Of a stretch of DNA of 64,000 nt, positions 5,746-59,845 are shown piece by piece. The first letter of the stretch is position 1, and each line of letters starts with the position of its first letter. Origin of the DNA: Undaria pinnatifida (taxonomy: Eukaryota > Sar > Phaeophyceae > Laminariales > Alariaceae); the NCBI GenBank assembly GCA_012845835.1, contig JABAKD010000016.1:17826125-17890124 (forward strand). The letters run 5' to 3'. The position numbers and the translations under genes were made by a program. The notes beneath the pieces were generated by a model, which had not been told where the DNA came from, did not search any database, and worked only from the letters and a program-made list of their open reading frames with translations.

Positions 5746-6113
5746 CGTACTCAATTTGTGCATGGCCGTAGTCGTATGACCATAGACCCTCGCATCCCTA
5801 CTATGCCGGGACGGAGCACGTCGGGTTTTCACCAACCAGGCAGACATTGCTTGCACCAAGCGCGAAGCGCCGTGAGGTGTTCGGCGAATCGCATGAAGGG
5901 TGAACTGCATCGTTCCAATAACCGCTCGCAAGACGGACTTCGGCACCTTGTGCCTACTTTCTTGCTTATGGATGACAGCGTCAATTAGTTAATTTATTTT
6001 CTGGTGTGACCACTCCAGAGACAGCAATGGGTATTACTATGTGACTGCCTCGTGGATGCCTTACCATATTCACACTACGTCAGGCGATAATTCTGCTTGT
6101 GCGGAGTTGGGCG
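5746..6113 (-). mobile_element. SINE S1, near full length, poly(C) tail
   Basis: Read on the minus strand. The left side is a G run (5729-5745), then CGTACTCAATTTGTGCATGG and GTCGTATGACCATAGACCCT. The first 80 bp match the 3' end of the LINE at 6114. The 5' end is near TTGTGCGGAGTTGGGCGGG. About 368 bp, with no long frame. It lies head to tail against the LINE's 3' end. Confidence 0.82.
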
Positions 6114-8289
6114 GGAGGGGGGGAGGGTACTCATTTGTTGCTTGCCTTAGTCATTTGACCATTGACCACGCATCCCTTTCGAGACGGAGCACTGTTCCTA
6201 CTCCTAATAGAGACACCTCCAACATTTGGGCGGTCATGACGCTTCTTCCATATACCACATAGAAACTGCTTCCTTATCCTATCCCCGTCCTGTTTCGCCG
6301 TCTGCGGCCACCACCTATCTCCTAGGATAGCGATCGTTTTCTCGCTACTCTCTAGTCTACCAAGCTCTTTCATGTCACATACGTCCAATTTCCTCATCTG
6401 TTCCTCCAATGCATCCCGTTCCTCCTTGTATATTTCACATTCTTCTACTGTGCGAGTCCTACTCTCTATTGTTGTGCCACACGGGCACATATTTGTAGCT
6501 ATGTCCTCCTCCTCCCGACTACTGGTGTATCTCTTTCTTCTTTCTGGTAGATCCAGGTCTCCTACACGAAATCGCAGTTCCAGCTTTTTTTTCGCGTAGT
6601 CCATTGGGTCGTGCAGATACGTTTTCCTTACGATGTCTTCCAATGTCTTCCCTCAACTCCCCGAATACCTCTAAGTGCTTCTCCTCTATCACCTTATGTA
6701 TTAGCAATAGCCCTTCCCTTTCTTTTATTATTTATTTTACTTCTGCCTTGTACCCACCAAAATTCTCCATTAGTACCTCCTCTTGGTCTCCCCCTAAATC
6801 CTTCCATATTTTCTCGTCTACGTTATCCCATCTTATTCCAGCTCGCCCTTGTGTTATTCTCTCCCATACAGCCCTATCAACTATGATGTTTGGCAACCTC
6901 TTTTCTGGAACATTATTTACTTTTTTTGTCAGTTCAACTTTCTTACGTCTCTATTTGTTTTAAGTGGGTACATTCCTAGTTCTGCTCTTAACACTGCTTA
7001 TTACTCGTCGAACTTGAGCATCCTAGTGTCTTTTTAGCTGCTGTCACCTGCACTGCTGTTTCCAGTTTTTTTACGAACTTCGCGTTCTCTTCCCATACTT
7101 CTCCTGCATACTCTAGCTTTGCTACGATCACATTAATCAGAATACATATTTTAATCCTAGTGTCAAGGTGCGGCTCTGTTAGGATCGCATCCATCTTGCC
7201 TTCGCCTTTCCTATTACTTTCACTATGTGTGCATCCCAAGAGCAGTCCTTTGAGATCTCTACGCCAAGGTACGTATACTGGTCTACGATCGGTAGTTCAT
7301 CTTCTCCCCACTTCCATTTGAAATTGACCGGATTCACCTTATCTTCGTTACGTACAACTACTTACTGCTCATGCTTTCACGTTGGCTGTCACTCTCCATT
7401 TCCTTGTGTACTCTATCTAGTGGTTTTTCTACCTGTTTCTGTAGTCCTTCGGGTGTTTCTGATATCCCCACGAAACCATCCGCAAACATCAACCCCGACA
7501 CCGTATTTTCCTCCATCGTGACTCCTTGCTTTCCTCCTTCGACTGCTACCATCATGTCATTAATATATACCTTGAGTAGATTGGGTGATAGTGTACATCC
7601 CTGTGCAACTCCTTGTAAAATATCAACATATTTAGATATTTGCCCGTCCAGCATCACAGCACTCCTCGCACATTCCGTCATATTTTTCATCATTCTCCAC
7701 ATCTTTCCTCTGATCCCAATTCCCCACATATTTTTCCACAACCCATTCCTCCATAATGTGCCATAGGCCTTCCGTGCACCTAGGAAGAAACAGTACGTCG
7801 TTGGCCCGGCGTATTTCCTACCTTGAATTATCTCACCTAATGTGTGCACATTGTCTACGCAACTGCGGTTTGACCTAAACCCTGCTTGCCCTTCGCTTGT
7901 TTTTTCGTCCTTTCCCAGCATTGTTCCCGTTCTATCGTTCAAAATCTTACAGAATGTTTTGCCTACGGTGCTCAGTAGCGTTACCCCTCGGTAGTTCCTT
8001 GGGTCAACCGTATCTCCTTCCTTGAATAGCTGTACTACTACTCCTTCTCTCCACCCCTTAGGCGCGTACTCGTTTTTCCTTATCCAATTATACAACATAA
8101 TCATCATGGTAAGCATACCTTCTCCCCTGCACTTCATGAGTGTATTCGCTAGTTTTTCTGCCCCTGCTGCCTTTCTATTCTTAAGGTTAGCTGCACACTC
8201 CTTTACTTCTCCTCTTGTGAACTCTCTCTGCAACCCGCCTGAACCACGGTCTTCCATTTCTGACGCACCTACGTTCGCCTCTTTCCGAA
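6114..8289 (-). mobile_element. LINE (non-LTR retrotransposon), 5'-truncated, poly(C) tail
   Basis: The minus strand encodes a reverse transcriptase in several frames. The RT part (7358-8257) shows NYRGVTLLSTVGK, EGQAGFRSNRSCVDN, VAQGCTLSPNLLKVYINDM and LMFADGFVG, the blocks of a LINE polymerase. Two catalytic aspartates are replaced: FLDxxKAYD reads FLGARKAYG, and FADD reads FADG. A C-terminal part (6131-6643) has a CPCG..EEC cysteine motif and ends QMTKASNK-stop, about 10 bp before the C-rich tail. The element is inactive: it is truncated near the start of the RT domain, and indels split the coding region between 6643 and 7358. Confidence 0.88.
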
Positions 8290-8737
8290 GGGGGGGGGGG
8301 GGGGGGGGGGGGGGGCTCTAAATACCAGGAGGGCGGGGTAAGGAGTCTATCGGTTGGGAGGGGGGAGTCTGTCTACCAGGAGGGGGGGATCCATCTACAT
8401 GAAGGAGGAGATCTGTTTGTACGGAGGCCGGTCTCCCTACCGAGGGTGCCGGGGCTCTACCTACCAGGGGGGGTAGATCTTTTCACTAGGGGAGGGGCAG
8501 GTCTGTCTACCGGTGGGGTTAGACCAATGGTAAAATTGGATAATGGGAGGTTTGCGACCTCAGATTTAAATGAACTTTACCGAAAAATCATTATTAGAAA
8601 TAAAAGGCTAAAATGATTATTGTCGGGGGTCAGTCTACCGGGAGGGCGGGGATCTGTCTACGAACGGGGGTGGTGGTCTGTCTACCAGGGGCGGGGGGGT
8701 CTATCTACCATAGGGGGGGGCGCCTATCTACCAGGGG
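8290..8737. repeat. G-rich minisatellite around TCTGTCTACC
   Basis: After a 29-G run, units such as GTCTGTCTACCAGGAGGGGG recur irregularly every 25-40 bp. The same motif resumes at 9018-9100 beyond the SINE, which therefore appears inserted in the array. Confidence 0.75.
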
Positions 8738-9018
8738 GCGGGGGGGGGGTGTGCTCTTTTCATGCACAGCCGTCGTCGTAAGACCATAGACCCTGGCACC
8801 CCCGCAATGCCGGGAAGGGGCACGTCGGGTTTTCTCATCGACCGGGCAGGCATCGCACCCACCAATCCCGAAGTGCCGCAGAGTGTTCGGCGCGGCGCGT
8901 AAAAGGGTGACCTGCATCCTGCTGTGAACCGCTTGTGAGCCGGACTTCAGCACCTTGCGCATACGTTCTTGCCTATAGATGACAGCTTCGAGTGGATCAG
9001 TTTAATTTCTGGCGTGAG
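8738..9018 (-). mobile_element. SINE S1, poly(C) tail, diverged
   Basis: G run, then TTTTCATGCACAGCCGTCGT, ATAGACCCTGGCACCCCCGC and GATGACAGCTTCGAGTGGAT at the far side. The 5' 90 bp present in the best copies are missing. Confidence 0.75.
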
Positions 9019-9506: not shown

Positions 9507-51310
<41,804 letters not shown>

Positions 51311-51964: not shown

Positions 51965-52510
51965 GGGGGGCATTTGTTGCCTGCCTTAGTTATTTGGCCA
52001 TTGACCACGCATCTCCCGTTCGAGACGGAGCGCTCTCGTACTCTCAATAGAGGCACCTTCAACATTTAGGCACTCAGTACGTTTTTTTCTGTTTGTTTCA
52101 TGAAAAATGTTTTGGTTCGTGTTACCCCGTTGCTGTTTCGCCGCCCGTGGCCACTATCTATATCCTAGGATGATGGCGATGATGGCTATCGTTTTCTCGC
52201 TATTATCTAGTGTGCCAAGCTTTCACCGCGTCACATTCGTCTATTCCTCATCCCCTCCTACACACCCCGTTCCTCCGTGTATAAACCACAGTCTCCCAAC
52301 TATGTTCTACTCTCTTTTGATTTGCCACAAGAGCAAATCTGCGCAAGTTCGTTCTCCTCCACCCGACTACTGGTATATCCTCCTTCTTCTTTCCGGCGGC
52401 CGTCCAGGCCCCCCACCCGAAATTGCGGTTTCAGCGTCTTCGCGTAATCCATTGGGCCGCACAAACACGTGTTCTTCCCTATCCTCCACTCACACCTCCG
52501 TATACATATT
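51965..52510 (-). mobile_element. LINE 3' fragment with poly(C) tail
   Basis: It begins on the plus strand with a G run (51954-51970), then CATTTGTTGCCTGCCTTAGT and GACCACGCATCTCCCGTTCG, matching the LINE at 6114. Similarity to the LINE continues to about 52510 (GAAATTGCGGTTTCAGCGTC versus GAAATCGCAGTTCCAGCTTT). It is the 3'-most 540 bp, degraded by indels. Confidence 0.72.
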
Positions 52511-59462: not shown

Positions 59463-59561
59463 CCCCTAAGTGAAAACTCGACGTGCTCAGTCCCAGGATT
59501 GTAGAGCTAGTCTCAATGACCACGGCCAAAATCATGGTATGATGATTACCCCCCCCCCCCC
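59463..59561 (+). mobile_element. SINE S1, short copy, poly(C) tail
   Basis: GTGAAAACTCGACGTGCTCA and GACCACGGCCAAAATCATGG lead to 16 C. Only the last 85 bp or so of the SINE is present. Confidence 0.65.
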
Positions 59562-59845
59562 CGCTGGAAAATAAATGGACTAGTTCGAAGCTGTCATCCA
59601 TATGCAAGAAAGTATTCACAAGATGCTCAAGTCCGCCTCTCATCAGTGCTGTTTAGTAGGATGCAGCTCACACTTCGTGCCATTCGCCGAACACAAACAC
59701 CTCACGGCGCTTCGCGCTTGGTGCACGCGATGTCTGCCTGGTCGGAGAAAGCCCGACGTGCTTCATCCCGGCATTGTAGGATATGCGAGGGTCCATGGTC
59801 GTAGCACTATACGGCTATGCATGAAACGAGTACCCCCCCCCCCCG
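59562..59845 (+). mobile_element. SINE S1, poly(C) tail
   Basis: It runs from AAGCTGTCATCCATATGCAA through CTCACGGCGCTTCGCGCTTG, GACGTGCTTCATCCCGGCAT and CGAGGGTCCATGGTCGTAGC to 14 C at about 59832. It follows directly on the C run of the previous copy. Confidence 0.78.

Follow-up and report, generated by a model that had tools for sequence, protein, structure and literature searches.

A LINE and a short, SINE-like element lie in series near one end of a 64,000-nucleotide stretch of Undaria pinnatifida DNA (this whole stretch is referred to here as the window). The locus raises the question of whether the two elements share a 3' end, and whether the bases of that end serve both as the last codons of the LINE and as the mark by which its reverse transcriptase recognizes a template. 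The elements concerned are collected in Table 1.

Table 1. LINE and SINE copies in the window, with parts of LINE copy A (LINE A) and neighbouring tracts
Feature	Position in window	Strand	Remarks
LINE copy A, 5'-truncated, decayed	8290 to 6127	minus	RVT_1 1.2e-13; 3' end at 6127
LINE A reverse transcriptase ORF piece	7358-8317	minus	
LINE A C-terminal ORF piece	6131-6652	minus	
LINE stop codon (TGA), within the shared block	6133-6131	minus	
LINE C-rich tail (sense strand)	6112-6126	minus	SINE 5' junction directly after, at about 6111
SINE-like element, 5'-truncated	6111 to 5747	minus	Consensus positions 206-570
C tract, LINE 5' junction	8290-8315	minus	
LINE copy B, more diverged	51971-52474	minus	Tail ...CAAATGCCCC; stop codon lost
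SINE copy, 5'-truncated	48461-48844	minus	Second copy in near-identical duplication downstream of window
Diverged SINE copy (77%)	8763-9016	minus	
SINE copy, 5'-truncated	11217-11402	plus	
SINE tail copy	15368-15462	minus	
SINE tail copy	23168-23300	plus	
Diverged SINE copy	59590-59833	plus	Follows another SINE tail (59483-59549) at about 35 nt

The original observation of a 3' end of about 75 bp common to the LINE and the SINE is confirmed. In LINE A the block comprises 66 nt (6192-6127, minus strand), from GTGCTC to GAGTAC, with a C tract immediately after it. In the SINE it comprises 73 nt (5819-5747, minus strand), again from GTGCTC to GAGTAC, and is followed by a single G and then by a C tract (5745-5729, sense strand). 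The plus strand and the terminal G run that had been given for the match need correction: LINE and SINE are both encoded on the minus strand, and the 'G run', read in the sense direction, is a C tract. Identity between the two tails is 78.9% over 71 bp with the LINE as query and 78.3% over 60 bp with the SINE as query, a few C-tract bases being included in each case. With the C tract removed, the LINE A tail scores 56 against the SINE consensus tail, a value reached by none of 5000 dinucleotide shuffles (maximum 25), and likewise 56 against the SINE copy at 5746, which was entered with one base past GAGTAC (0/5000; maximum 28). Chance similarity is ruled out by these shuffles as the source of the LINE A match. 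The tail of LINE B gives a weaker score of 25, which 5 of 5000 shuffles reach and which is near the shuffle range. Elsewhere in the window (12403-12438, minus strand), 36 bp of LINE tail (86%) are followed by GATGATTAACCCC instead of GAGTAC, and possibly belong to a different family of elements whose tail is related.

The match is not confined to one chimeric insertion. A first look at the genome (511 Mb in 68 contigs) with the SINE produced 1096 candidates, and scoring of 40 of these gave at least 42 matches; 18 distinct LINE copies extend into the tail block in the sampled DNA, which consists of 50 loci plus the window (361,520 bases, including 4,418 N; partly overlapping and biased to SINE-rich places). 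The shared 3' tail by which a SINE/LINE pair is recognized is therefore present in many copies of both elements; no intact autonomous LINE was found in the sampled DNA. At 17 of 30 loci the SINE continues for at least 300 nt upstream of the query, which yields a consensus of about 570 nt. Most copies are terminated by the C tract; at the 5' end, 15 of 52 junction rows begin at consensus positions 1-12 and the remainder are truncated. Recognizable target duplications were few: those of at least 9 nt were found in six of 70 rows (SINE and LINE together), two of the six being C-rich, compared with 2.0% of mismatched pairs.

The origin of the 5' part of the SINE was also considered. ARAGORN found no tRNA in the consensus, and the window and four of the sampled loci (L004, L005, L010 and L029) had no Rfam match at the gathering score; a tRNA or an Rfam-listed small RNA as the head of the element is rejected at the thresholds used. 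A T-rich tract inside the consensus argues against transcription by Pol III. In the head itself (consensus positions of about 15-100) there are two similar units, GGTTGGCACCGACGCTGTAAAACAT and GGTTGGCAACGACGCTGTAAAACAT, which precede the T-rich tract. Two further repeats were seen in the window. The region 26-1997 is an array of diverged units of about 39 bp around CCAACGATCG, and a 6.3-kb stretch (44854-51167) recurs just downstream (L032:3696-10000) with 99.4% identity, to the end of the compared locus; this may reflect recent duplication or else the assembly itself.

The second part of the question is whether the block is coding sequence in the LINE. The LINE A ORF ends in NGQMTKASNK and a TGA stop, after which GTAC forms a 3' UTR of 4 nt before the C tract begins, so that the block corresponds to about the last 20 codons, the stop and 4 nt. 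Since hardly any 3' UTR exists in the LINE, the common end falls on these codons. The 18 LINE copies yield a consensus with a single open frame, which ends ...NVGGVSIRSRNGAPSRKGCVVNGQMTKASNK at TGA; LINE A aside, TGA occupies the stop position in 11 of 17 copies. The claim that the block forms the LINE's final codons and stop is borne out by this consensus.

A similar C-terminal peptide is found in another brown alga. The Ectocarpus protein P0057 aligns with the C-terminal 164 residues of the LINE at 35%, and at its end, NNAPSSRGRVVNGLTAKA, 11 of 18 aligned residues match, compared with 47 of 138 in the preceding part (P=0.037 by Fisher's test, with the boundary chosen after the alignment was seen). 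The tail scores 52, which none of 5000 shuffles reaches (maximum 48). The matched peptide is followed in P0057 by CKTEEYVPP, which could be encoded by GAGTAC and a C tract. Codon comparison within the LINE family gave no significant difference between the block and the sequence upstream. Third-position changes number 20/194 in the block and 70/483 upstream (P=0.17; all sites, P=0.07), in an underpowered comparison for which 10 of the 18 copies were long enough. An earlier run, with 17 copies compared with LINE A, found an excess of third-position changes upstream (183 vs 120 and 131), and in the block 46, 41 and 29 changes at positions 3, 1 and 2, with no clear phase in this underpowered set.

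In the SINE, the block differs from that of the LINE by +5, +1 and +1 nt (+7 in total), the +5 sitting in a predicted hairpin loop; the reading frame is therefore broken, while most of the predicted pairs are kept. The block had also been expected to be the most conserved part of the SINE, and conservation counts reject this. In 41 SINE alignments of at least 88% identity, conservation is 0.958-0.970 in the block and 0.955-0.974 in the 150 nt upstream, and in 14 older alignments it is 0.79-0.84 and 0.70-0.81, respectively; a few copies in this set are counted twice, loci L003 and L014 being also inside other fetched stretches.

When each is folded alone, the LINE A tail and the SINE consensus tail are predicted to adopt a similar three-way shape, made up of a closing stem, a short hairpin and a longer arm. 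The closing stem is predicted to pair the two ends of the block, and its 3' strand overlaps the LINE stop codon. A different fold is predicted for the LINE B tail, and fold energies are not clearly better than those of shuffles (z -0.97, -0.16 and -1.19). An alignment of 62 tails was used to assess the pairs; it omits 10 of 72, namely eight partial or irregular tails together with L018:1666 and L022:1501, whose block letters are identical to those of L010. The named pairs are 90.3% standard in this alignment (shuffled mean 89.6; 0/500 higher), the covariation score is reached by 7/500 shuffles, and changes on both sides of a pair occur in 11 cells (5/500 shuffles). The number of pairs with both-side changes (five; 205/500 shuffles) and the number of further pair types (31; 318/500 shuffles) are at the shuffled level. 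Versions of the structure slid along the alignment pair at only 27.9-49.3%, yet have 5 to 14 pairs with both-side changes, as many as or more than the structure itself.

RNAalifold returned no structure for the full 62-tail alignment. Nine chosen LINE tails have a consensus fold with the closing stem and short hairpin, together with most of the longer arm; for 12 chosen SINE tails RNAalifold predicts two hairpins and no closing stem. When tails are folded alone, at least four closing-stem pairs form in 8 of the 14 labelled as LINE and 19 of the 58 labelled as SINE, compared with 91 of 1440 base-shuffled sequences; the labels were assigned automatically, and L004:2944, among the 58, is a LINE by alignment. 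These predictions make a fold of the tail RNA suggestive, and much of the likeness between the LINE and SINE folds is explained by shared ancestry.

The arrangement of the copies bears on how they are mobilized. Fourteen of 69 element starts lie within 45 nt behind another SINE or LINE tail on the same strand, compared with 0.99% of random positions in the same DNA, and none of the 69 junction rows starts behind a tail on the opposite strand; one element in these rows is counted twice (L003:75-273 is the same as L034:2651-3066). The 14 joins comprise five of a SINE after a LINE, four of a LINE after a SINE and five of a SINE after a SINE. At L022 (2099 to 712, minus strand) SINE, LINE, SINE and LINE follow in series, and other chains, joined by C-rich tracts, are present at L012 (2073 to 1250, minus strand) and in the window (8290 to 5747). 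A run of at least five Cs is found within 16 nt of the 5' junction in 32 of 70 rows, compared with 2.8% of random positions, examples being the tract at 8290-8315 in the window and those at L010 and L007; at L010 the C run stands between a likely target duplication and the element. Mixed chains of SINE and LINE point to one machinery. Either template jumping or serial landing in C tracts could generate them. The LINE members at L022 have 14/227 and 34/175 divergent sites, and this unequal divergence favours serial landing there. In the predicted protein P0056, one of those found with the LINE reverse transcriptase, a proline run, a truncated SINE (55/71 aa to the consensus) and a piece of LINE reverse transcriptase (41 aa, 83%) occur in series; the proline run is such as a C tract would give.

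Among stringent LINE/SINE pairs, of which UnaL2/UnaSINE1 is one, the SINE carries the tail of the LINE, and the stem-loop signal is located in the 3' UTR. In the Undaria pair, by contrast, the candidate signal coincides with codons, and its fold is a predicted one. For ZfL2-1 and ZfL2-2, the LINE protein recognizes the RNA of its own 3' tail, which contains a stem-loop signal (PMC4176376). The closest likeness in a brown alga is RTEX-N1_Ec32 of Ectocarpus, a non-autonomous element of about 600 bp that is the most abundant single family and has its 3' end in common with RTE-X LINEs (RTEX-1 and RTEX-2_Ec32); size, shared 3' end and a 5' part of unknown origin all resemble the present case (PMC12477816). 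The comparison is by description, and the sections of that paper used here are silent on coding overlap and C tails, and likewise on a terminal fold and on chains (PMC12477816). EhSINE1 and EhLINE1 of Entamoeba histolytica are similar in that an element of 500-600 nt has just a 3' end of about 70 bp in common with its LINE, and the similarity of EhSINE1 to Pol III boxes is limited (PMC2996970); overlap of the common part with the ORF is not stated in the portions of the three reports drawn upon (PMC2996970, PMC2657916, PMC3118788). Bov-B and Sauria SINE likewise combine an RTE-clade LINE with a SINE that has part of its 3' end, and a base stretch (T) occurs near target duplications; in place of C tracts they have tails such as (CAA)n and (ACCTTT)n, and chains are not mentioned in the text available from that source (PMC13295347). 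The Ectocarpus and Entamoeba precedents indicate that the pair is of a known kind. Descriptions of the coding overlap, the C tails and the chains were not found in the openly licensed literature, as far as its texts were accessible.

By analogy with Ectocarpus, LINE A may be given the clade name RTE-X; no endonuclease was seen in this truncated copy. A search with its reverse transcriptase found 58 proteins, of which 16 carry an Ectocarpus name and one is from a bacterial metagenome-assembled genome (MAG); searches of viral_contigs, genome_contigs and phages gave no relatives. The MAG protein, P0026, is filed under a Hyphomicrobiales bacterium and is 77% identical to the LINE reverse transcriptase over 40% of the query. 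No relative of it was found in genome_contigs, and it is perhaps algal DNA in that MAG.

The reading that we favour, and consider rather probable, is that of a LINE with a non-autonomous partner, in which the LINE's reverse transcriptase probably starts on the common end and the same bases code for the C terminus and mark the RNA. At its 3' end the short element has a counterpart of the final 66 nt of the LINE, and then a C tract; the enzyme would start copying at that common end, and selection would act on both the protein and the RNA. In favour of this reading are the score of the LINE A match, the many copies of both elements, the open LINE frame, the P0057 peptide, the loss of frame in the SINE with most predicted pairs kept, the similar predicted folds and the chains. 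Against it are the ordinary conservation of the block in the SINE, the non-significant codon comparison, the weak score and different fold of LINE B, and the fold energies and alignment folds; moreover, the LINE-SINE identity of about 79% falls below that of certain pairs already described, which are nearly identical (TS SINE; PMC3747384). The original proposal, that the same bases serve the protein end and template recognition, is plausible on the sequence evidence. A fuller form of it is put forward more tentatively, as a real possibility: the template-recognition signal would lie in the LINE's own last codons, RNA shape and enzyme C terminus being drawn from the same 66 nt, the SINE would carry the shape free of the frame, and both elements would land behind each other's C tails and so form mixed chains.

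The C tract alone could also be the signal. The SINE might then be a relic, born from a 3' fragment of the LINE, with an enzyme that now needs only the C tract, a block that is left over and a coding overlap that has no second role. The C tract at the end of most copies, a block no better conserved than its surroundings and the weak support for the fold all fit this account. It nevertheless seems rather unlikely. Against it, the SINE block is still about 79% identical to the LINE with its frame lost, in diverged copies as well, and BLAST of LINE A against the window shows no other stretch in common with this SINE except C tracts. It is about equally unlikely, or slightly more so, that the true partner of the SINE is another LINE family with a better-matching tail, LINE A having only an ancestral tail in common with it. 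An identity of just 79% or so would suit such a partner, and the CKTEEYVPP of the Ectocarpus protein could come from a more SINE-like tail. Against this, tblastn of the 58 proteins with the sampled DNA gave LINE-type matches only at copies of this LINE, apart from one match of P0054 (L045:5791-6463); this point is weak because the sampled DNA amounts to about 0.36 Mb of 511 Mb.

Capture in the reverse direction is highly doubtful; here the LINE would have taken over a tail that belonged to the short element, or to a donor common to both, and so gained about 20 codons of ORF. The position of the block, 16 codons behind the conserved WKKR region and at the very end of the ORF, with almost no 3' UTR to follow, would fit such an event. 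The similar C-terminal peptide in the Ectocarpus protein speaks against it, and implies that any capture predates that split.

If, as the favoured reading holds, the signal lies in the codons, the LINE cannot easily alter its tail to escape the parasitic SINE without altering its protein, whereas the SINE would be free to optimize the RNA shape. The pair would then be a clean experiment of nature on the features that a reverse transcriptase reads, in which conserved pairs of the frame-free SINE can be set against conserved codons of the LINE. A legible record of how one enzyme moves two RNAs may, in addition, be preserved in the C-tract tails and the mixed chains.
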